The notes under the pieces: generated by a model
Database searches by the model: none
What the model was told of the DNA's origin: nothing
The model's input: the letters and a program-made list of their open reading frames with translations, nothing else
Part shown: positions 9,765 through 21,419 of the stretch, piece by piece
Layout: each line of letters opens with the position of its first letter
Position numbering within the stretch: position 1 is the stretch's first letter
Made by a program: the position numbers and the translations under genes
Assembly (NCBI RefSeq): GCF_027923765.1
Contig: NZ_AP026709.1
Coordinates: forward strand, 2,413,501-2,477,500
Length of the DNA: 64,000 bases
Source: Pseudodesulfovibrio nedwellii
GTDB taxonomy: Bacteria > Desulfobacterota > Desulfovibrionia > Desulfovibrionales > Desulfovibrionaceae
Direction: 5' to 3'

Positions 9765-12485
9765 ATGCTAAGTAAAACCCTGATTGTAAACGGGATTGCC
9801 AGAGACATCGTTGCTGACGGAGAGACGACACTTGCTGATATCCTGCGCAAGAATCTGTCCCTGACCGGCACCAAAGTAGGTTGTGACACAGGCCATTGCG
9901 GAGCGTGCAGTGTCATCGTTGACACTAAGCTCATTCGTTCCTGCTCATACAAGTTCAAGCGGCTCAAACAGCACGCCACAATCACCACCATCGAGGGTGT
10001 CGGCACACCAGACAACCTGCACCCCTTGCAACTCGCCTGGATTCTCCACGGCGGTGCCCAGTGTGGATTCTGTACTCCCGGATTCATCGTCTCTGCCAAA
10101 GCGCTTTTGGACCTGAACCCCAACCCGACCCGCGAAGATGTCCGCGATTGGTTTCAAAAGCACAAAAATGCCTGCCGTTGTACGGGCTACAAACAACTCA
10201 CCGATTCTGTCATGGACGCGGCAGCCGTCATGCGCGGAGACAAGGATATCAAAACTCTGTCATGGGAAATGCCCGAAGATCAACGCATTTGGGGGACTCG
10301 CTATCCCAAGCCGTCTGCCGTGGCCAGAGTCACTGGCATGACCGACTTCGGTGCGGATAAGATTCTCAAGATGCCTGAAGACACCTTGCATATGGCACTG
10401 GTTCAGGCGGAAGTCTCTCACGCAAACATCATCTCCATCGACACCACTGAGGCTGAAAAAATGGAAGGCGTGTTCAAGGTTGTCACGCACAAGGATGTAC
10501 CGGGCAAAAATCGCATCACCGGATTGATCACCTTCCCCACCAATAAGGGAGACGGTTGGGATCGTCCCATTCTCTGTGACGAAAAAGTTTTTCAGTATGG
10601 CGATGCTCTTGCCATTGTCTGCGCAGACACAGAAGCACATGCAAAAGCCGCAGTCTCCAAGGTCAAAGTCGAACTTGAACAACTACCGGAATACATGAAC
10701 GCACCGGCAGCCATGGATGATAACGCCATGGAGATTCACCCTGGCACACCGAATATCTATTTTGAACAGACTGTCAAAAAGGGTGAGGACACCCAAAACA
10801 TCTTTGAAAAAGCACCGGTCGTAGTTGAGGACGATTTCTACACTCAACGTCAGCCCCACATGCCTATTGAGCCAGATGTCGGGTTTGCCTACTTTGATGA
10901 CGAAGAGCGTCTGGTCGTCCATTCCAAATCCGTTGGCCTCTACCTGCATCACGCCATGGTTGCCCCCGGTATCGGCATCGAGGCAGACAAACTCGTCTTG
11001 GTTCAAAACCCCGCTGGCGGCACTTTCGGATACAAATTCAACCCGACCATGGAAGCACTGCTCGGTGTCGCGGCGCTGGCAACGAAACGGCCTGTGGCTC
11101 TCTGTTATAGTTATGTGCAGCAACAGATTTATACAGGTAAACGCTCCCCCTGGTTCTCCCATCTCAAATTAGCCGCAGACACGTCTGGCAAACTACTCGC
11201 CATGGATAGCGACTGGACTGTAGATCATGGTCCATACTCGGAATTTGGAGATCTGTTGACCCTGCGAGGCGCTCAGTTCATCGGTTCGGGCTACAACATT
11301 CCCAGCATCAACGGCATCGGCCGCTGTGTTGCCACCAACCATGCTTGGGGTGCCGCCTTCCGTGGTTTCGGTGCCCCCGAAGGGGAATTCGGCTCCGAAG
11401 TTCTCATGGACGAACTGGCAGAAAAACTCGGCATGGACCCACTCGAACTACGCTACGCCAACGTCTATAGAAAAGGGTCCACAACCCCCACAGGCCAAGA
11501 ACCTGAAGTTTATTCACTGCCTGAAATGATCGACATCCTGCGCCCGATATACAAGGAAGCGCAGGCAAAGGCCTCAGCCAACTCTACGGAGATGGTCAAA
11601 CACGGTGTAGGCGTTTCCATTGGCATCATCTGCGCAGGACTGGACGGCCCGGACCATGGTTCTGCGGACATCGAATTGAACGAAGACAACACCGTCACCC
11701 TTTACACAACGTGGGAAGATCATGGACAAGGCGCAGATAGCGGCACGACATGCACGGCACACGAAGCTTTACGGCCGCTCAAACTCATGCCGGAAGATAT
11801 CCGTCTCGTTTTGAACGACACAGGACGTTGTCCTGACGGTGGCCCTGCTGGCGGCAGTCGTTCTCAGGTCATTGTCGGAAACGCAATCGTCGATGCATGT
11901 AAAAAACTGTTGGCAGGCCTAAAAACTGACGACGGAGCTTTCCGCACCTATGACCAAATGGTAGAGGAAGGCCTTCCTCTTCGATACAGCGGTTCATGGA
12001 CCGCTCCAGCCGAAGCCTGCGGCCTCGACGGACAGGGAAACCCCTTTGTCTTCTATATGTATGGTCTGTTCATGGCCGAAGTGGCTGTCACATTAGAGAC
12101 CGGCGTCACGGAAGTTGAAAAGATGACACTGGTCGCAGACATCGGCACCGTAGGTAACAAGCTCATCGTCGATGGTCAGATGTACGGCGGCATTGCACAA
12201 GGTATCGGCATGGCCCTGTTCGAAGACTTCGAGGACATCAAGAAGCATTCGACAATGCTCGGAGCTGGTTTCCCCTACATCAAACAAATCCCGGACGATA
12301 TGGACCTGATCTACGTGGAAACGCCTCGCAAAGAAGGACCTTTTGGCGCATCAGGCGTAGGAGAACTTCCTCTGACCACGCCTCATGCCGCAGTCATCAA
12401 CGCCATCACTCAGGCATGTGGTGTCCGCATCACCAAACTTCCAGCCCGACCTGAAAAAGTCCTTGCCGCATTGAAGAATCAATAA
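9765..12485 (+). CDS. mop: molybdenum aldehyde oxidoreductase (xanthine oxidase family)
   Basis: A 906-residue enzyme, almost exactly the length of D. gigas Mop and alike throughout, as far as I recall that sequence. It oxidises aldehydes to carboxylic acids at a molybdopterin cytosine dinucleotide centre. The N-terminal plant-type [2Fe-2S] domain has Cys40, 45, 48 and 60; the second [2Fe-2S] domain has its Cys pairs in CGFC and CRC (about 100-139). The molybdenum domains follow, with the catalytic glutamate in GASGVGELPLT near the C-terminus. There is no signal peptide, so it acts in the cytoplasm. A molybdopterin-binding gene follows 68 bp downstream. Confidence 0.96.
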   Translation: MLSKTLIVNGIARDIVADGETTLADILRKNLSLTGTKVGCDTGHCGACSVIVDTKLIRSCSYKFKRLKQHATITTIEGVGTPDNLHPLQLAWILHGGAQCGFCTPGFIVSAKALLDLNPNPTREDVRDWFQKHKNACRCTGYKQLTDSVMDAAAVMRGDKDIKTLSWEMPEDQRIWGTRYPKPSAVARVTGMTDFGADKILKMPEDTLHMALVQAEVSHANIISIDTTEAEKMEGVFKVVTHKDVPGKNRITGLITFPTNKGDGWDRPILCDEKVFQYGDALAIVCADTEAHAKAAVSKVKVELEQLPEYMNAPAAMDDNAMEIHPGTPNIYFEQTVKKGEDTQNIFEKAPVVVEDDFYTQRQPHMPIEPDVGFAYFDDEERLVVHSKSVGLYLHHAMVAPGIGIEADKLVLVQNPAGGTFGYKFNPTMEALLGVAALATKRPVALCYSYVQQQIYTGKRSPWFSHLKLAADTSGKLLAMDSDWTVDHGPYSEFGDLLTLRGAQFIGSGYNIPSINGIGRCVATNHAWGAAFRGFGAPEGEFGSEVLMDELAEKLGMDPLELRYANVYRKGSTTPTGQEPEVYSLPEMIDILRPIYKEAQAKASANSTEMVKHGVGVSIGIICAGLDGPDHGSADIELNEDNTVTLYTTWEDHGQGADSGTTCTAHEALRPLKLMPEDIRLVLNDTGRCPDGGPAGGSRSQVIVGNAIVDACKKLLAGLKTDDGAFRTYDQMVEEGLPLRYSGSWTAPAEACGLDGQGNPFVFYMYGLFMAEVAVTLETGVTEVEKMTLVADIGTVGNKLIVDGQMYGGIAQGIGMALFEDFEDIKKHSTMLGAGFPYIKQIPDDMDLIYVETPRKEGPFGASGVGELPLTTPHAAVINAITQACGVRITKLPARPEKVLAALKNQ

Positions 12486-12553: not shown

Positions 12554-13570
12554 ATGAAAACTGTCCCTGTTCAAAAAGCCATCGGCATGGTCCTATGTCA
12601 TGACATGACACAAATTATACCCGGTGAAATCAAGGAACCAGCTTTCAAAAAAGGCCATGTCATTGCTGAAGAAGACATCGCCAAACTTTTGGAGATAGGC
12701 AAAGAGCACATCTATGTGCTCAACATGGAAAAAGGACACATCCACGAAAACGAAGCAGCGGAACGCATTGCCAAAGCTGCAACCGGACCGGGGATCACTC
12801 TTTCAAATGTCAGCGAAGGAAGGATAAACTTCATCGCTTCACCCGGTCTGCTCGATATCAACACCGAAGCCCTGAACCGCATCAACTCCATTGAAGAAGT
12901 CGTTCTTGCCACCATGCACGATGGTCAGCAGGTCACGGAATCACATCCCGTTGCCGGGACACGAGTGGTCCCGCTGGTCATTGATGAAAAGAAAATAGAA
13001 CAGGTTGAAGCGATCTGTGCCGAGTACCCATATGTGGTCGGTATTCGTCCATTCCAACATCACAACGTGGGGCTGGTGACGACAGGGAGCGAAGTCTATC
13101 ACGGACGCATTACGGACAAATTCGGTCCAGTCATCCAAAAGAAATTTTCCACACTCGGCTCCTCAGTCATGGACCAGCGTCTGACCTCCGACGATCCATC
13201 CATGACCCGTGACGCCATTCTCGCCTTCATTGCCGAAGGCGCTGAAATGGTCGTGGTAACTGGTGGCATGTCCGTGGACCCGGATGACCAGACACCTACA
13301 GCCATTCGAGCAACAGGAGCCGATGTCGTCACATACGGCTCCCCAACATTCCCCGGCGTCATGTTCATGCTGGCAATCAGGGACGACGTGCCCATTCTGG
13401 GCTTGCCCGGATGTGTCATGTATTACCGGGCATCCATTTTCGATCTCGTAGTTCCTCGTCTCCTGGCCGGAGAAGATGTCACGCGAGAAACAATCGTTGG
13501 CATGGGGCACGGCGGCTTCTGCGCAGGCTGTGACGTTTGCCGGTATCCTACCTGCCCCTTTGGCAAATAA
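12554..13570 (+). CDS. molybdopterin-binding protein (MoeA/MoaB-like domain)
   Basis: A 338-residue protein whose C-terminal half (about 170-310) is a molybdopterin-binding fold: a TTGSEVYHGRI segment, then VVTGGMSVDPDD and a LPGCVMYY motif typical of MoeA/CinA-type domains. The N-terminal half is less clear. The last 18 residues carry four cysteines (CAGCDVCRYPTC), a possible metal or Fe-S site. Lying just downstream of mop, it probably helps cofactor insertion or modification for that enzyme. It is shorter than classical MoeA, so I do not assign a symbol. Confidence 0.82.
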   Translation: MKTVPVQKAIGMVLCHDMTQIIPGEIKEPAFKKGHVIAEEDIAKLLEIGKEHIYVLNMEKGHIHENEAAERIAKAATGPGITLSNVSEGRINFIASPGLLDINTEALNRINSIEEVVLATMHDGQQVTESHPVAGTRVVPLVIDEKKIEQVEAICAEYPYVVGIRPFQHHNVGLVTTGSEVYHGRITDKFGPVIQKKFSTLGSSVMDQRLTSDDPSMTRDAILAFIAEGAEMVVVTGGMSVDPDDQTPTAIRATGADVVTYGSPTFPGVMFMLAIRDDVPILGLPGCVMYYRASIFDLVVPRLLAGEDVTRETIVGMGHGGFCAGCDVCRYPTCPFGK

Positions 13571-13660: not shown

Positions 13661-14215
13661 TTAAGCGTTTTTGACGTAAATGATGGACTGGGTGCTCATT
13701 TTCTTGATCACCTGTTTGCCCTTGGCCTCGGCCTGCATCAAGAGAATTTCCTTTTCGCCGAAACTGAGTGCGCCTGTCAGACAGACGTCAACACAGACCG
13801 GGTCCAAACCGTGGGTCACACGATCATAACAAAGATTGCACTTGTGTGCGTAATTCTCTTCCTTGTTGAACTGAATAACGTTGTAAGGACACTTTTCGAT
13901 ACATTCGCCACAACCGGTACACTTCTCCGTATCGATAAGCACGATGCCGGTCTGTGGGTCCTTGGATATAGCGTCGTATTCACACGCCTTGGCACATGGA
14001 TACTTCTTACAATGCTGACACATGACGACCCAATAGTCTTCACGCAATTCAGGATAGGTTCCTTCCAACTTACTTTCCACCCGAAGATAATTGGCCATGG
14101 CTCCGGGTTGATCATTCTCGTGGTCGATTATTTCATGATGATTCCGGCAAGCCACGATACAGGTTTTGCAACCGATACAGCGGTCCAGATCCACCATTAT
14201 GCTGAGTTGTCTCAT
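13661..14215 (-). CDS. 4x[4Fe-4S] ferredoxin-type electron-transfer subunit
   Basis: A 184-residue iron-sulfur protein of the DmsB/NrfC/PhsB class. Four cysteine groups are visible: CIGCKTCIVAC, CQHCKKYPCAKAC, CTGCGECIEKC, and a last group split between CNLC and CVDVC. It shuttles electrons for the molybdopterin oxidoreductase encoded 12 bp upstream. Like that subunit, it has no signal peptide, so the complex should be cytoplasmic. It is the last gene of the operon, before a terminator. Confidence 0.93.
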   Translation of the reverse strand: MRQLSIMVDLDRCIGCKTCIVACRNHHEIIDHENDQPGAMANYLRVESKLEGTYPELREDYWVVMCQHCKKYPCAKACEYDAISKDPQTGIVLIDTEKCTGCGECIEKCPYNVIQFNKEENYAHKCNLCYDRVTHGLDPVCVDVCLTGALSFGEKEILLMQAEAKGKQVIKKMSTQSIIYVKNA

Positions 14216-14227
14216 TTCTCACCCCTC

Positions 14228-16363
14228 TTATTTGTATATCTTGACTCGAGTCGAGACATGCGCCTCACCACCGCGCATATCTTGTTCGTCCAGCGTGGAG
14301 CCTGCATCGGCAATCAATTCATTATCGCTGATCCATTTGCCGCGAGATGCCACTTTGCCCATGGTCTGACCAAATCCATGAATGATACCTGCGCAACCAG
14401 GAACAATTTTTTCAGTCAGCATGACAGGGACCTCAACAGAACCTGTACCTGATGCCATGGTCACGGTATCGCCATCAACAATACCGAGTTTTTTCGCATC
14501 AAGAGGGTTCAGGAGACAGGGGTTAGCGTCGAGACCGGATACGGGGTCACGAAGCTGTGCGTTATTCTGGGACCATGCGCCGGTATTATTCAGAAAAATA
14601 GTCCTGAAATTAACAAGAATGAATGGGAATTCATCTTCGCCGCGACGATATTCCAGCGGCAATTCGGGGCTGGGCCACTTCTGACCGATATCCTCATACA
14701 TCTGCCATTCCAACTCGATTTTGCCGGATGGCGTATTAAACTTGCCGTCATCTTCATATTTACGGAAACCAACAGCGCCCGGAGACCAAAGGCCACCGTT
14801 CTCCTGTAATTCCTTGACGGACATACCCACACCGGACAATTCGATGTCGTAATATTCTACATCATCCTTGAAGGCGAAGTACTCGGGGAACATGCGCTGA
14901 CCAAGCTCGATAAAAACACGGTTGGCATGACGGGACTCGCCGATGGGCTTGACCACGGGTTGGCACAGTGCAGCGCAATGGCCAAAGTTATACCACCATG
15001 GCATGTAGAGCAATTCCCACCGCTCAAAGTTGGTCTGATCAGGCAAAACGAGGTCGGCCCATTTCATGGTTTCGGACGGCATGATTTCGGTCACGACAAG
15101 CAGTTCCAGCTTGTAGTCACCATTCTCGTCCTTCATGGTCACGGCCTTGCGCCATTCGCCTGACCCCATTTCGGACAGAGCCGGGTTGCACTCCGAGGCA
15201 AAGAAGACTTTGAGGGTGTCGTCCTTGATGGCCTGTGCCGCATACCACGTCGGTTGCAAAAAGAAGTTGTAATTATCGAATTTTTCCCTGTTGTTACCCG
15301 ACCGATGGTAGCCAAGTTCCGTGACGTCTGGTGCCGAAGGAACAGGTTCAACCGGTGCCATGGGTGCGATCTCGGGCAGCGGCTGGCCGCCGGGGTTATC
15401 CAAATTGCCGGTAATGACAAGGAAAATGGTCCAGGCGTGACCCCAATCCATGGCGTTCCCGTACATGATGGATTTGAACGCGTCGATACACGCACTGGGA
15501 GCATCGGCAACCATCTTGGCAAGCTTGATGATATCCTCGACCGGGACATCACAGATTTTGCTCATGGCTTCCGGCGTCTTGTCCTTGATGTATGCCATCA
15601 GGCCGTCCATGTCGCCTTCACGAACCCACTTGTCACAGAACTTCTTATCATGCAGATCATTCAGCAACAGGTAGTTACAGACACCCAAAAACAGAGATGC
15701 ATCGCCACCCGGCTTGATGGGAATCCACCAATCCGCCTTGGAAGCTTCCGTACGATAGATTGGATCGATGACAATGAGTTTGGCCCCACGCTCCTTGGCG
15801 TCGAGGATATAACCAGGAACAGCAGCATCATCCAGACAACCAAAGGGATGACGACCGGACAGGATCATCAGGCCACCCTTGGGGACCGTATGATACATCG
15901 GGGCGATGTGATGATTGGGAAAACAGCCGAACGTATGCATCATGGCCATGATTTTCCCCGAGTCACAATGGGGGAGACCCGTGGAAATGAACCCGCCGCT
16001 GGCATTCACAAAACGCCATTTGGGATCGGTCACGGAATGCGGAAACATGGAGTAGGTGAATTTGTGGGCCTCGCCACGATCACGCAGTTCGGTCAGCTTT
16101 GTTTCCATGATGTCCATGGCTTCGTCCCAAGTAATGCGCTCAAACTTTCCACTGCCGCGTTCTCCCACACGCTTCATGGGATGCTTGAGACGCTCAGACG
16201 AATACAGTGAGGTAATACCTGCCATCCCCTTGACGCAGGCCTTGCCGCGCCCACGAGGATTTCCCTTCACTTCTTTGACGACACCATTTTCTACACGCGC
16301 CAAAATGGCACATTCAGCTTTACACTGATAGCAGACAGTTGGAATCCACCCATCTTGATACAT
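14228..16363 (-). CDS. molybdopterin oxidoreductase, catalytic subunit (DMSO reductase superfamily)
   Basis: A 711-residue bis-molybdopterin guanine dinucleotide enzyme. The N-terminal [4Fe-4S] motif has Cys11, Cys14, Cys18 and Cys43, the last followed by a conserved Lys. The likely molybdenum ligand is Cys133 in LPHCDSGK, followed by TFG; it is neither selenocysteine nor serine. The cofactor-binding C-terminal barrel is present. There is no twin-arginine signal, unlike most thiosulfate, polysulfide or nitrate reductases of this group, so it works in the cytoplasm. Its partners are the ferredoxin subunit downstream and a 43-residue membrane protein and FNT channel upstream. The substrate is unknown; a small anion carried by the channel is the natural guess. 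Confidence 0.92.
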   Translation of the reverse strand: MYQDGWIPTVCYQCKAECAILARVENGVVKEVKGNPRGRGKACVKGMAGITSLYSSERLKHPMKRVGERGSGKFERITWDEAMDIMETKLTELRDRGEAHKFTYSMFPHSVTDPKWRFVNASGGFISTGLPHCDSGKIMAMMHTFGCFPNHHIAPMYHTVPKGGLMILSGRHPFGCLDDAAVPGYILDAKERGAKLIVIDPIYRTEASKADWWIPIKPGGDASLFLGVCNYLLLNDLHDKKFCDKWVREGDMDGLMAYIKDKTPEAMSKICDVPVEDIIKLAKMVADAPSACIDAFKSIMYGNAMDWGHAWTIFLVITGNLDNPGGQPLPEIAPMAPVEPVPSAPDVTELGYHRSGNNREKFDNYNFFLQPTWYAAQAIKDDTLKVFFASECNPALSEMGSGEWRKAVTMKDENGDYKLELLVVTEIMPSETMKWADLVLPDQTNFERWELLYMPWWYNFGHCAALCQPVVKPIGESRHANRVFIELGQRMFPEYFAFKDDVEYYDIELSGVGMSVKELQENGGLWSPGAVGFRKYEDDGKFNTPSGKIELEWQMYEDIGQKWPSPELPLEYRRGEDEFPFILVNFRTIFLNNTGAWSQNNAQLRDPVSGLDANPCLLNPLDAKKLGIVDGDTVTMASGTGSVEVPVMLTEKIVPGCAGIIHGFGQTMGKVASRGKWISDNELIADAGSTLDEQDMRGGEAHVSTRVKIYK

Positions 16364-16402: not shown

Positions 16403-16534
16403 TTACTTTTTATGACTATCTTCTTTAAAGCGGTATTTTTTTCTATACGCATTCCCGATGATCCAAATAAAAGCCCATACAGCTATAAAGACGCCCCAAA
16501 TTAACGGATTGAAAGGACTGTAATCGAAGTTCAT
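16403..16534 (-). CDS. 43-residue single-pass membrane protein
   Basis: A small gene between the channel and the molybdoenzyme. The ATG at 16534 follows AAGGAGGTGGA, a near-ideal ribosome site, and overlaps the stop codon of the channel gene as ATGA, so the two are translationally coupled. The product has a short N-terminus, one hydrophobic helix (about residues 11-28, rich in Trp, Ile and Val) and a basic Lys/Arg tail that should stay in the cytoplasm. It ends at 16403 with TAA. It might anchor the soluble molybdoenzyme at the channel. I recognise no family. Confidence 0.8.
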   Translation of the reverse strand: MNFDYSPFNPLIWGVFIAVWAFIWIIGNAYRKKYRFKEDSHKK

Positions 16535-17433
16535 TCCACCTCCTTAAGTTCCCCGTCGGCAGCCATGAGTTCATGACGTTTGCGGTACAAATCCTTGAGT
16601 TTGAGAGGATCTGCCACCAACTGGAACACGACCGCCACGAAAAGCGTTCCACCAATGGCATTACCCATGACCGTAAAGAGTTGATTATGCGCCCAACCAA
16701 ACTTGCCGAACCCCCAGTGCATCAGCACTGGAACGACGTTGTTCATACCGGAAACGGCCTCAACCCACATGTCTTGTTGGAAAAGCGGCACGGCCAAAAA
16801 ACCGATGTTCGCTATACAGTGTTCATTCATTCCTGCCACAAATGCCAGAGGGCCATATGCAGTCAGGACGATCTTGCTCATGTCGTCATTAGTTTTCATG
16901 AAAAGGATAGCTGCGGATTGCAGGGTCCAAGTACAAATTATACCCATGACAAAGATTTCCATGGCGGTCTCGCCGGTCTTTGCCAAGCCAATTTCATGGG
17001 CTCGCATAAGCCAAGGCAAAGCGTGATAACCGCCGCCTTTACTCATAATCCACATGAACGTCATGGAGCCGACGAAATTACCAATATACCCCACAAAAAC
17101 ACCACAGACGAACTGTCGCCAAGTGATGCGATCCTGGAACACTCCAACCAACCCATAGGCCATATCTGCAGTGACAAGCGTCATGCCGCTAAACATGATG
17201 ATGACCAACGAAAACATGAACACGAGTCCCATGAGCAGATTGGCCAAGCCCGGTGCCAGATTGCTCGGCACTCCGGCAGAAACAGCCAATGCCAGCATAG
17301 CGCCAAAGCAAACAAATGCCCCTCCCGCAAATGCGGATATGGAAAAGGCCAACGGCCTTTCCCGAAGCATTCCCCACTTCTTGTCGCACACGTCTGCGAC
17401 TTCCATCAGATGTTTTTCAGAACTCAAAGGCAT
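16531..17433 (-). CDS. formate/nitrite transporter (FNT) family channel
   Basis: A 300-residue membrane protein with six helices and the FNT half-repeat pattern. A NEHCIAN segment carries the central histidine that gates the family's pore, and GNFVG and MGNAIGG match the two broken-helix loops. FNT members pass small monovalent anions such as formate, nitrite or hydrosulfide; the sequence alone does not say which. I chose the ATG at 17433 (GGGAG six bases upstream), which aligns with usual FNT N-termini; an in-frame ATG at 17508 would add 25 residues. It is the first gene of the molybdoenzyme operon, 280 bp downstream of the sigma-factor fusion gene. Confidence 0.88.
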   Translation of the reverse strand: MPLSSEKHLMEVADVCDKKWGMLRERPLAFSISAFAGGAFVCFGAMLALAVSAGVPSNLAPGLANLLMGLVFMFSLVIIMFSGMTLVTADMAYGLVGVFQDRITWRQFVCGVFVGYIGNFVGSMTFMWIMSKGGGYHALPWLMRAHEIGLAKTGETAMEIFVMGIICTWTLQSAAILFMKTNDDMSKIVLTAYGPLAFVAGMNEHCIANIGFLAVPLFQQDMWVEAVSGMNNVVPVLMHWGFGKFGWAHNQLFTVMGNAIGGTLFVAVVFQLVADPLKLKDLYRKRHELMAADGELKEVE

Positions 17434-17713
17434 CCAATTCTCCCATTCGATAAAATGCGCCTCTGATACAAGAACGCATCCCTTCACTCTCTCCGCAATC
17501 GCTTGCATGGTTATCCTATCTTTCCACCAGCCAGCGCCGTGCACTGCGCGCAGACGTTTTTGCCGTCCACACAAATAAGAGCCATGAGCACAGGAAAAAG
17601 TTACCTGTATAAGGAGAAAATATGAAGTTTTTATAAAAAAACAAACAAAAAAGAGGTGTTGGAAAATATCTTTTTTTGAAGGGCAGGCTCGAAAAGAAAA
17701 GAATGATCTCTCT

Positions 17714-19099
17714 TCAACAGAATTCATCACAGACGAATTCATCGAGATCACATGAGGAAGACAGTACACCACTGGCAATGGCCAATTGCATAAACTCATG
17801 AATACGCCCCCGATCAGGACTCAAATCATCAAATGTGACAATTTTTTCTTCAAGAACTTTGGCTGCAAGATCCCGAGATACGCCAGTATATACGGCCTGG
17901 GTCGCGGCACAGTAATCAATATCCGTATGAAGTTTGTCTCTGGCCTGATATAAAATGCGGACATAATCACTCACCAGTTCAGGATAAGCATTAAAGAAGT
18001 CCTCACGAACGGCAACCACACAACAAATATGTCCCGGCGCAATCTCCTTGGAACGAATCTGCACATCAGCTCCGCCTTCACTAACGCACTTCGTACTCCA
18101 CGGTTCGGCACAAAAAAAGGCGTCTATCAACTGTCGCTTCAAGGAACTGATGACGTAGGAAGGGTTGGTATCGGCAGTACTGACATTGCCCCAATTCCCC
18201 GGTTGATCCTGAGCCAACTTGCCGAGCAGGACACGATGCGTGGAATATTTGCCAGGGACGCCCACAAGTTTTCCCTGCATCTTTTCAACGGAAGTTGTCA
18301 GTGAACTCCCATCGTGATGCCCATCCATAATGTATTTAAGCGGTGTCCCGGAATTGCACAACTGCATGGCCAGAGGTGCCATGATAAATGCCGCGTTGAT
18401 TGTTCCCTGACGCAAAGCATTGGCAAGCGCGGTCCAAGACAGAAAGCGCTTCATATGAATCCGGGAATTGCGTCCCATGCCTAGGCGATGGGCTACCATG
18501 CCCAGCAAATGATCCGATATGGGAAGATAACCGACCTTGATGGCGGGTTCACTGACATGCTTTTCCAACATATTAGAAAGTAATGGGCAAGCACTGTGCA
18601 ACCGCTTGCGTACGGTTCCTCTTTTCAAGGAAAGGGCGTCAGCGACTTCTCCCACTGAATAGCCGGATTCGAAATACAGTTGGCAGACATCCCGCAAGGG
18701 CGCGGACAATTGAGAAATGGCATGACTTGCCGCAGAACGAAAACACTTGGATTCGTAACTCAATGAAGGGTCAAAAGACTTCGGGGCAAGAGGTTGAAAT
18801 CGAGCCAGACCATCCAAAGAAATTTCTCGCCCTCGAACCCGCAACTGACGATGACACTGAGACACGACTATCGCCCTGAGCCATGCCGGAAAACGATCCA
18901 CTTCCCGCAGTTGATCCAGCCGTGAATAGGCTATGAGTAAGGACTCTTGAACAACATCTTGTGCTTGATCATCGGAGCCAAGCATACGGTTGGCATGAGC
19001 AAGGATGCCGGGCATCAACCCGGTAATAAGCTCGTTCATCCCGCGAACATTCGTTGGTTCTTCAAAGCATCCCATGGTTCGGACGCGCTCCATGTTCAC
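17714..19099 (-). CDS. ECF-type sigma factor fused to NrtA/NasS-like ligand-binding domain
   Basis: A 461-residue protein joining two families in one frame. Residues 24-90 are sigma region 2 (segments AQDVVQESLLIAYSRL and FPAWLRAIV). Residues 124-178 are sigma region 4 (SVGEVADALSLKRGTVRKRLH). Residues 186-447 resemble the NMT1/NrtA/CmpA solute-binding family (KVGYLPISDHL, RFLSWTALANAL, INAAFIMAPLA, GHHDGSSL, AEPWSTK). No signal peptide is present, so the binding domain lies in the cytoplasm, as in the nitrate sensor NasS. The last 15 residues hold three Cys and several acidic residues. A ligand-controlled sigma factor is inferred. The first codon is GTG at 19099; ATG at 19093 or 19075 are alternatives with equally weak ribosome sites. 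Confidence 0.88.
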   Translation of the reverse strand: MNMERVRTMGCFEEPTNVRGMNELITGLMPGILAHANRMLGSDDQAQDVVQESLLIAYSRLDQLREVDRFPAWLRAIVVSQCHRQLRVRGREISLDGLARFQPLAPKSFDPSLSYESKCFRSAASHAISQLSAPLRDVCQLYFESGYSVGEVADALSLKRGTVRKRLHSACPLLSNMLEKHVSEPAIKVGYLPISDHLLGMVAHRLGMGRNSRIHMKRFLSWTALANALRQGTINAAFIMAPLAMQLCNSGTPLKYIMDGHHDGSSLTTSVEKMQGKLVGVPGKYSTHRVLLGKLAQDQPGNWGNVSTADTNPSYVISSLKRQLIDAFFCAEPWSTKCVSEGGADVQIRSKEIAPGHICCVVAVREDFFNAYPELVSDYVRILYQARDKLHTDIDYCAATQAVYTGVSRDLAAKVLEEKIVTFDDLSPDRGRIHEFMQLAIASGVLSSSCDLDEFVCDEFC

Positions 19100-19358
19100 T
19101 TGCTCAACTATTCAGACCTATTACGTATAGCGGTATATCAAGAAAACACAATAGTCGAGAAAAAACGGGGAAGCCAAACCCTCTTTCACTTTTCATGGAA
19201 AAGAACACGACATCAAAACAACAGTTTAATATATTATTTTAAATACATAATGCCATAAATTGCATTCTCCAACCTCGCATAAAAAATAAAATATATAATA
19301 TGACTAAAAGGTCTAGATGGATATCTTGAGCGTAAATAAAACTTTAAGGGAGTATCGT

Positions 19359-21419
19359 ATGGCGTTCAAAGATCTTTCACTAAGGATAAAAATCGGGGGA
19401 AGTGTTTGTCTTATCGTTTCCCTCATCCTCGTGGTGTACACAGCGATTGTCGTCTCAAAGACGCAAACCATTTCTATCGATTCCGCCAAGGAAATCGCGG
19501 ATGAGATGGCCAACCGGTATGGCAATCAAGTCAAAAACAACATTGAAAAAGCACTTGATGCCGCTATCACGACATCTGCCATATTCGGAGGCATGGTCAA
19601 GGACCGGGATATCATCGATCGCACCATCATCGACGAAGTCCAAAAACAAGTCGCTCTTTCCGATGATACTTTTTATGGCATTCAGTCCTGCTTCGAGCCA
19701 AATGCCTTGGATAACAAAGATGCCGAATTCCATGCGACAGGCGACCCCATGTGGGAACACATGGGTGGTGCTTACGGTAACTACTGGTGGAAGGAAGGCG
19801 GCACACTAAAAGTCGTTAACCTCACCTCATACGATTATCCGAATACACGCGCATGGTACAAAGGCCCTCGAGACAAAGACGGACCGTTCCTGACGGAACC
19901 GTATTACACTGAGGTTGCCAAGACGAACATGTCCACCATCAGTGTTCCCATCCGGGAAAACGGCAAGTTCATCGGTATTGTCGGCATCGACTTTGTTCTA
20001 AGTGCTTTCCAAAAAATGGTGGATGGAATTAAACCGATGGAAAGCGGTTACGCCTTCATCGCTTCAAATAAAGGCTACTGTGTAGCCCACCCGAACAGCA
20101 ATATCGTGGGGAAAAATATCACCGAAGCTTTCCCGCCCGAATTAAAGACCACGATTCTCTCTTCGCTAGAAAACGGCAAGAAGTTTGAGGGCTTTATTGT
20201 ATCGCCACTAGACAACATGGAATACCTTTTCGAATTACAGCCAATTCTGGTAAACGGAACAGGTTCCCCATGGTCCATTGGTATCGCCATTCCCAAAGAC
20301 AAAATATATGAAGATGCCGATGCATTCCTGCAGTTAAGCGTTATCTTGACCATAGCCGCAATCCTTCTGGTTGTGGTTGTCGTTGTTCTACTCGCAAGGG
20401 CCATCACCAGTTCCCTGATCAAGGCCGTCGAATTTGCCAAGGAAATTGCCGCAGGCAATCTCATGGCGCAACTCGATATCAACCAGAAAGACGAAATTGG
20501 TGTCATGGCCTCAACGCTCGCGGAAATGGGTGCAAACCTCAGAAGCGTGGTTGGTGAAGTACGCGGTGTGACCAATAACGTCGCCTCTGGTTCAGAAGAG
20601 CTCTCTTCTACTTCCATCGCGCTGTCGCAAGGCGCAACGGAACAGGCTGCCTCCATTGAGGAAGTTTCCTCCAGCATGGAAGAAATGGCCTCCAATATCA
20701 GCCAGAATGCTGAAAACGCCGCCCAGACACAAACCCTTGCGGACGGCGCTGCCAAGCAGGCAGAAGAAGGCGGCGAAGCCGTATCCGAAGCCGTCACAGC
20801 CATGCGGGAAATCGCTGACAAGATCAGTATCATTGAAGAAATAGCCCGACAGACCAATCTACTCGCCTTGAACGCGGCCATTGAAGCAGCCCGCGCAGGC
20901 GAACACGGCAAAGGCTTTGCGGTGGTCGCAGCCGAAGTCAGAAAGCTGGCGGAACGCTCAGGTGTCGCAGCGGGTGAAATCAGCCTGCTGGCAACCGAAA
21001 GCGTAGACGTGGCTGACCGTGCAGGCGAACTGCTTGGCAAGTTGGTCCCGGACATCCAACGCACAGCTGAACTGGTCGAAGAAATCACCACTGCCAGTAA
21101 TGAGCAAAATGCAGGTGCCTCCCAGATCAATACAGCGATTCAGCAACTCGACAGCGTTGTGCAGCAAAACGCCGCAGCCTCGGAAGAGATGTCTTCGACA
21201 TCATCCCAGCTGTCCGCTCAGGCCACACAGCTCCAGTCCACCGTCTCCTTCTTCAAACTTGATGAAGGCGGTTACCAGCAACCCCGGCAAGTCGTAGCAA
21301 CCAGGAAGCCTGCACAAGCGCTGAGCACAACACAGTCTGCTCCTCAGGCCCCAACCCAGAGCACACAAGGTGGTGTCGCATTGGAAATGAATGAGGACGA
21401 AGACTTCGAACGGTTCTAA
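19359..21419 (+). CDS. methyl-accepting chemotaxis protein with dCache sensor
   Basis: A 686-residue chemoreceptor. One membrane helix lies near residues 10-35, followed by a large periplasmic dCache-type sensor (about 40-310), a second helix (about 320-345), a HAMP domain and the cytoplasmic signalling coiled coil with the hairpin tip [20 protein letters not shown]. The C-terminal tail is flexible and ends in DEDFERF, which may act as a tether for the methylation enzymes; a CheR gene lies at 39.9-40.8 kb. The start at 19359 follows AAGGGAG; an upstream ATG at 19317 has no such site. It is divergent from the sigma-fusion gene. Confidence 0.93.

Follow-up and report, generated by a model that had tools for sequence, protein, structure and literature searches.

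The window analysed here, a stretch of 64,000 nucleotides from Pseudodesulfovibrio nedwellii, encodes a protein in which sigma factor regions 2 and 4 continue in frame into a complete solute-binding-protein domain. We consider this protein to be, probably, a one-component ECF sigma factor that is dedicated to the adjacent operon and would be gated by a ligand of its cytoplasmic binding domain. The fusion is conserved, it is linked to the same operon from locus to locus, an ECF-like promoter motif lies between the fusion gene and this operon, and no match to the motif was found where the fusion is absent. The features are listed in Table 1, in which, as in the text, L numbers denote loci and G numbers genomes.

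Table 1. Features of the fusion protein, its promoter and its operon in the window, and of related chemotaxis fusions at other loci.
Feature	Position	Strand	Basis and remarks
Sigma-binding-protein fusion gene	17714..19099	-	461 aa, GTG start; conserved in 33 loci
Sigma-70 region 2, residues 25-91	18827..19027	-	Pfam PF04542 Sigma70_r2, E 1.2e-10
Sigma-70 region 4, residues 127-171	18587..18721	-	Pfam PF04545 Sigma70_r4, 3.4e-6
NMT1/NrtA-type binding-protein domain, residues 184-461	17717..18550	-	Pfam PF13379 8.7e-19; Foldseek 3un6 1.6e-19
Motif D259-G-H-H-D-G-S265	18305..18325	-	His261, His262, Gly264 and Ser265 invariant in 32/32 full fusions; D259 in 31/32
Motif S286-T-H288	18236..18244	-	Invariant in 32/32
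Motif H357-x-C359-C360	18020..18031	-	Invariant in 32/32; Cys-Cys aligned to NrtC Lys-Lys
Predicted ECF promoter of the downstream operon	17576..17605	-	-35 GGTAAC (17605-17600), 17-bp spacer, -10 GCTCTT (17582-17577)
Formate/nitrite transporter family (FNT) channel	16531..17439	-	Pfam PF01226 1.4e-42; tblastn census; start placed by homology
Molybdopterin oxidoreductase, 711 aa, PhsA/PsrA-like	14228..16363	-	Pfam; nearest solved structure by sequence 2vpw, 2e-60
4Fe-4S electron-transfer subunit, DmsB-like	13661..14215	-	Pfam, NCBIfam
MoCF_biosynth (molybdopterin-binding) protein	12554..13570	+	Convergent; Pfam; member of the same cluster beside the module in 6/33 loci
REC-NMT1_2-CheW	L125:5388-7340 (G522), L118:3629-5566, L121:12761-14698, L123:7820-9856		Pfam on L125; others by similarity
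REC-NMT1_2-CheW	L124:4886-6805, L126:5197-7206, L114		By similarity

The fusion frame is uninterrupted, with no internal stop, and Sigma70_r2, Sigma70_r4 and NMT1_2 follow one another along it, all three above the curated Pfam cut-off. The NMT1_2 alignment covers residues 184-389 (E 8.7e-19, 68.7 bits against a gathering score of 24.7), and Sigma70_r4_2 also matches, at 2e-5, slightly under its own cut-off. Among NCBIfam models, TIGR02937 (sigma70-ECF) places the protein with the ECF sigma factors at 6.1e-17 (61.7 bits, cut-off 42.9), and SsuA_fam matches at 2.9e-21, yet under the cut-off of that model. The profile score and the matches to type II binding folds together assign the C-terminal part to the NMT1/NrtA family (PF13379). 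The protein differs from members of the extension-bearing groups ECF41, 42, 56 and 238, since in place of a SnoaL, TPR or Cys-rich extension the only Pfam domain found there is NMT1_2.

An AlphaFold2 model built from 11 sequences (mean pLDDT 77.6, pTM 0.63) consists of a helical N-terminal sigma part and an alpha/beta domain that starts at about residue 187, with pLDDT below 50 confined to residues 1-16 and the linker 89-116. The first strand of the alpha/beta domain (187-191) lies three residues past helix 160-183, which bears the end of region 4. The top PDB match of this model in Foldseek is 3un6, a Staphylococcus aureus binding protein whose entry title says zinc bound (1.6e-19, TM by target 0.83); TauA, SsuA, NrtA and CmpA are among the further matches. 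Pfam, NCBIfam and Foldseek thus uphold the original prediction of ECF regions 2 and 4 and a full NMT1/NrtA-type domain in one frame, and the predicted structure of the C-terminal part is a binding-protein fold best matched by 3un6. The domain limits first given, 186-447, stop slightly short, as conserved positions reach residue 455. The protein had also been described as lacking a signal peptide, and by eye we see no hydrophobic export segment ahead of the sigma part.

A frameshift or misassembly joining two genes was considered and rejected, because 33 separate loci carry the fusion, nearly all of them within one taxonomic order. The genome of the window, a single 3.76 Mb contig, holds one copy, and the sole other match in it is sigma-only. 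Within a sample of 297 genomes of the same order, 37 match the fusion at E <= 1e-10; 30 of them have the fusion and 7 only a distant separate binding protein. These 30 genomes contribute 31 places (G074 has two, and in G064 only a piece of the binding part is present, at the end of a contig), which together with L033 and L041 from named contigs make up the 33 loci. Ten loci in all are named, among them Pseudodesulfovibrio, Nitratidesulfovibrio and Desulfovibrio sp. A2, and a Pseudodesulfovibrio sp. OB3 MAG is a 99%-identical relative; L041 comes from a MAG placed outside the order, in the Desulfobacterales, by its record label. When 395 genomes from across the phylum were sampled, no more than 4 of the matches listed cover the sigma and the binding part together, and each of these 4 comes from the window's own family. 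Taken with the order census, this suggests that the fusion hardly occurs outside a single order, where about 1 in 10 of the genomes sampled has it; its carriers are sulfate reducers and bacteria closely related to them. A plasmid search gave 53 records with relatives of the fusion, and in no record does the match reach 80% of the query. In the window the fusion gene has as its divergent neighbour a gene that by eye encodes a methyl-accepting chemotaxis protein (19317-21419, plus strand), which is there in 4 of the 33 loci.

Directly downstream of the fusion gene, and on the same strand, a tblastn census found genes for a transporter, the molybdopterin oxidoreductase and the 4Fe-4S subunit in 31 of the 33 loci; the contigs of the remaining two (L067, L068) end early. 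Gene order varies, as does the type of transporter: 11 loci have FNT and the others HPP (20 of the 31 complete loci), an identity that comes from Pfam PF04982 on two examples. No fusion locus was found to have FNT and HPP together (E <= 1e-15, 33 loci). FNT is found both in the window's clade and in a distant clade (L059, L064), so that the transporter was presumably exchanged more than once. Besides the transporter and enzyme genes, no gene family is common to more than 6 of the 33 loci (ORFs of at least 70 aa), and therefore no anti-sigma partner is evident. This absence of any other common gene cluster, together with the N-terminal sigma part, also sets the protein apart from the binding proteins of ABC transporters.

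The enzyme follows the fusion closely: in the 297-genome order sample it is present (E <= 1e-120) in 29 of the 30 genomes with the fusion versus 6 of the 267 without it, and the one fusion genome from which it is missing, G081, is 63%-complete. Among solved structures and NCBIfam models its nearest sequences are thiosulfate/polysulfide reductases; its score with the PhsA equivalog model is 232 bits against a cut-off of 694. At the presumed metal ligand a Cys-Asp motif (LPHCDS) is invariant in 37 aligned sequences. By eye the 711-aa protein has no export signal, and among the neighbour families of the 33 loci we found no conserved membrane-anchor gene beside it. The enzyme gave zero matches on plasmids at 1e-40. 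Close to the operon in the window is a gene for a single-chain aldehyde oxidoreductase (9765-12485, plus strand; NF045668, 1639.6 bits).

Fusion-less copies of the enzyme are found in the order in G231, G006, G029, G044, G058 and G061 (in two pieces), and outside it in G413 and G634. Three of these genomes (G029, G044, G058) keep the neighbourhood of their fusion-bearing relatives, that is, uvdE, a 107-aa family that is PilZ-like by eye, HPP, the enzyme and the FeS gene, with the fusion absent. The window's own genome has a second copy of the oxidoreductase gene, 92% identical and accompanied by an FeS gene (L079, G000:C1:1547600). Its neighbours are transposase-like genes, two MoCF-like genes and a NifH-like gene (by eye), and both fusion and promoter pattern are absent there.

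The gap between the fusion gene and the operon has an ECF-like promoter pattern in 33 of 33 loci, composed of GG(T/G)AAC or CGAAC, a 17-bp spacer and a CTCT-like element. The consensus of ECF-type target promoters has a GGAAC-like -35 element. The pattern was written after reading those same 33 gaps, and it matches 2% of mononucleotide-shuffled gaps. Because of this origin we turned to split training, with 22 loci set against 11, ranking the sites among roughly 8,000 to 32,000 positions per locus on both strands. A matrix from the 22 loci placed the promoter site first in 11 of the 11 others, and a matrix from the 11 placed it first in 18 of the 22, second in L047, L048 and L050 and third in L057; loci of one clade are still related. 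The split is a hard test, because it nearly follows two classes of -35 element (GG/GT versus CG). When whole clades were left out, the best matrix scores in the gaps ranged from 2.9 to 29.8, the true sites of L065-L067 scoring just 2.9-3.9 with their own clade left out; maxima over 500 bp of background have a mean of -8.6, a standard deviation of 5.0 and a maximum of 11.8. In the window's own genome the operon promoter is the sole site with fewer than 3 mismatches. The original prediction of a regulator in one chain, with a binding protein kept in the cytoplasm as its sensor, is supported: no anti-sigma partner is evident, and a likely target promoter lies directly downstream.

Upstream of the fusion-less enzyme copies the pattern was found in 0 of 8 cases (500 bp before the first gene of the module, starts placed by tblastn). 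Seven of these copies have best matrix scores of -5.5 to 5.4, and L083 reaches 13.5, above the background maximum of 11.8; judged by score, L082 and L083 are thus not clean. In both L082 (5.4) and L083, at about -257 before the HPP gene, it is a T-run, GTAATTTTTTTT, that scores with the promoter matrix; AAC and the -10 element are both missing from these stretches, which are perhaps chance matches or relics of a lost promoter.

In a search of seven genomes for other targets of the sigma factor, the non-operon sites listed all have 3 mismatches and are no commoner than matches to a reversed control pattern, and we therefore claim no regulon. Self-activation was considered as well and rejected: the best-scoring site of the 16-kb locus in the window is the downstream promoter, not one upstream of the fusion. 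As the predicted promoter lies downstream of the fusion gene, its use would not increase the amount of the sigma factor itself; a weaker copy of the promoter may precede the gene. A search for a sigma-70 promoter upstream of the fusion did no better than chance, and joint variation between the -35 class and residues of the sigma part is confounded by descent. A block, GCGCGCAGTGCAC or a near variant, stands past the promoter in the FNT-type leaders of eight loci (17539-17551 on the minus strand in the window). The fold of the window leader that has this block is not significant, and no RNA family was found in 17300-19400.

The binding part is the more conserved part of the protein. Of the columns aligned over the 32 full fusions, 47 do not vary; 10 of these lie in the sigma part and 37 in the binding part, the latter including H197, W222, H261, H262, G264, S265, S286, T287, H288, P333, W334, H357, C359 and C360. 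Mean identity is 49% in the binding domain versus 42% in the sigma part, the binding domain being higher in 456 of 496 pairs. The junction between R166 and Y191 measures 25 or 26 residues in all 32. A profile of the domain finds 3un6 first among solved structures (4e-30), followed by the regulatory domains of NrtC and CmpC (about 5e-15 to 3e-14).

Similar residues mark the domain in other settings. Of 15 aligned non-fusion domains, 14 again have H261, H288 and Cys-Cys (the exception, L122, is without Cys-Cys), as do 5 of 5 plasmid-borne relatives; L105, L108 and L112 are likewise without Cys-Cys. In three genomes (L116, L117, L120; Pfam on one) separate relatives of the sensor domain directly adjoin a Ni-CODH-like gene. 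An ABC permease and ATPase are also present at L116 and L117 and at L134, the plasmid pRUMAL02 of Ruminococcus albus 7, which combines a related domain with permease, ATPase and cooS. On four plasmids of other bacteria (L135, L136, L137, L138) related transporter genes come with an acyl-CoA-dehydrogenase-like gene in 4 of 4 cases and with a carboxymuconolactone-decarboxylase gene in 2. In proteins of about 650 aa with the order REC-NMT1_2-CheW (Table 1), the His/Cys-Cys binding domain forms an insertion within what is otherwise a CheV-like chemotaxis adaptor; at L123 and L124 their genes adjoin a CheX-like gene and one for a separate binding protein without a signal. These residues and relatives speak against a simple nitrate pocket and suggest a ligand with a preference for His and Cys.

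Every step between ligand and promoter firing, like the direction of the control, we infer from the anatomy of protein and locus, and the following course of events seems to us the most likely one. The C-terminal domain, in the cytoplasm, would bind a small molecule or a metal complex in a cleft presumably lined by the conserved His, Trp and Cys residues. Entry of the ligand would close the two lobes of the domain, and the closure would be passed through the fixed-length junction straight into sigma region 4, altering the exposure of that region and so deciding whether the sigma part joins RNA polymerase or reaches the -35 element. The active sigma factor would then recognise the promoter that immediately follows its own gene, turning on the small-anion channel (FNT or HPP) and the cytoplasmic molybdo- or tungsto-enzyme with its 4Fe-4S subunit. 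Channel and enzyme would then move and convert the compound.

What the ligand might be was weighed from the pocket and the operon. Sensing of a transition metal or metal complex through a putative His/Cys cluster, which would make the protein a metal-gated sigma factor with CorE-like logic, is conceivable if not likely: H197, H261, H262, H288, H357, C359 and C360 are invariant in 32 of 32 fusions and the nearest structure is titled zinc-bound, but the zinc of a crystal may derive from buffer, H197 and H357 are lost in some relatives of the domain, and no metal transporter accompanies the small-anion channel and molybdopterin enzyme of the operon. In the portion of their paper available to us, Inoue et al. 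describe 3un6 homologues beside clade B Ni-CODH genes and propose nickel import (PMC6344411), an arrangement also observed here. The original prediction had likened the sensing to that of nitrate by NasS. If the domain did sense nitrate or nitrite in this way, the operon would handle nitrogen oxyanions with a nitrite channel and a nitrate reductase-like enzyme, and a nitrite or nitrate link through the FNT and HPP transporters is possible, as the two interchange beside the same enzyme. NrtC and CmpC are moreover the next nearest solved relatives after 3un6. We nevertheless hold nitrate or nitrite sensing to be unlikely. Lys is among the nitrate-coordinating residues of NrtA, and the residues aligned to C359 and C360 are Lys-Lys or Gly-Lys in NrtC and CmpC; the fusion has Cys359-Cys360 opposite NrtC Lys-Lys, with Cys in 32 of 32 sequences and a set of invariant His residues (197, 261, 262, 288, 357) around it in the alignment. 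The enzyme, too, is nearest to thiosulfate reductase, not to nitrate reductases, among solved structures and NCBIfam models. The available part of PMC7438415 describes both FNT and HPP as families of nitrite transporters (citing Maeda 2014) but has FNT channels carry formate and hydrosulfide too. A search for NapA as a nitrate marker gave 0 of 297 genomes at E <= 1e-150, a threshold probably too strict for distant NapA, so that this search is uninformative.

Formate, bicarbonate, a CO-related molecule or another C1 compound is a similarly doubtful candidate. Some of the nearest standalone relatives stand in Ni-CODH operons, the operon can carry a channel of the formate/nitrite family, and the fold matches include the bicarbonate binder CmpA. 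Formate dehydrogenases have Sec/Cys-His at the metal ligand position, however, where the operon enzyme has its invariant Cys-Asp, and we know of no HPP protein that carries formate. Finally, the binding-protein domain might have no ligand at all and serve as an interaction or stabilising module, with the amount of sigma factor or a partner protein exerting the control. Binding folds are open to reuse, and that a conserved one can be a pure interaction module counts against our best explanation; yet nothing in the protein varies less than the motifs of this domain (37 of the 47 invariant columns), and many relatives borne by transporters also have H261, H288 and Cys-Cys, which makes a ligand-free module quite improbable in our judgement.

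A ligand-gated sigma factor with its own operon would be a compact one-protein switch, useful in anaerobes. Because sensor, promoter and target operon are visible in 33 loci, the control of a sigma factor by a small molecule becomes testable in a system of RNA polymerase, a single protein and a single promoter, and the identity of the ligand would help to name the role of the conserved molybdopterin enzyme and of the whole sensor subfamily. ECF sigma factors are usually signalled by a separate anti-sigma protein, and most of the groups that carry extensions are little studied. Sigma factors with built-in regulatory extensions are already described in the available portions of PMC8999054 and PMC8103513, among them CorE, which responds to copper through its own extension (PMC8999054). 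The fusion resembles these proteins in having regions 2 and 4 followed by an in-frame regulatory extension, with no anti-sigma factor; unlike the extensions named in that part of PMC8999054, its own is a whole two-lobed binding protein of about 275 aa. Our literature search found no ECF group with a binding-protein extension, though the 2021 ECF classification, which lies outside the sources searched, may mention one.

The NasS-NasT system, as presented in the accessible part of PMC3795266, likewise uses a cytoplasmic NrtA-type protein as the sensor for a nutrient operon; NasS, however, is a protein on its own, which sets free the RNA-binding NasT and is reported to have retained all the nitrate-coordinating residues of NrtA, whereas the fusion has its output, the sigma part, in the same chain and Cys at the NrtC Lys positions. 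The C-terminal regulatory domains of NrtC and CmpC are also NrtA-like domains fused to a cytoplasmic protein, in their case an ABC ATPase, but their output is transport and their residues at the Cys-Cys positions differ. With 3un6 the fusion has GHHxG, STH, AEP and Cys-Cys in common, and with the CODH-linked binding proteins of the NitT/TauT type PITDHL, GHxxGS, STH, AEP and HxCC, the aligned CODH-linked proteins having Arg in place of the second His of HH. Unlike the fusion, these 3UN6-type proteins are separate, exported, served by ABC transporters and without a sigma part. The REC-SBP-CheW proteins of other Desulfobacterota are, like the fusion, cytoplasmic signalling fusions that have H197, H261, H288, H357 and Cys-Cys, with an output of the chemotaxis type rather than transcription. 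We lean towards the view that in the sigma fusion a ligand bound by a periplasmic-binding-protein fold directly gates a sigma factor, bringing logic of the LacI or LysR kind to the promoter-recognition subunit at one dedicated promoter, and that the His/Cys-Cys sensor has been recruited in three ways: for transport in CODH operons, for chemotaxis in REC-SBP-CheW and for transcription initiation in the sigma factor.
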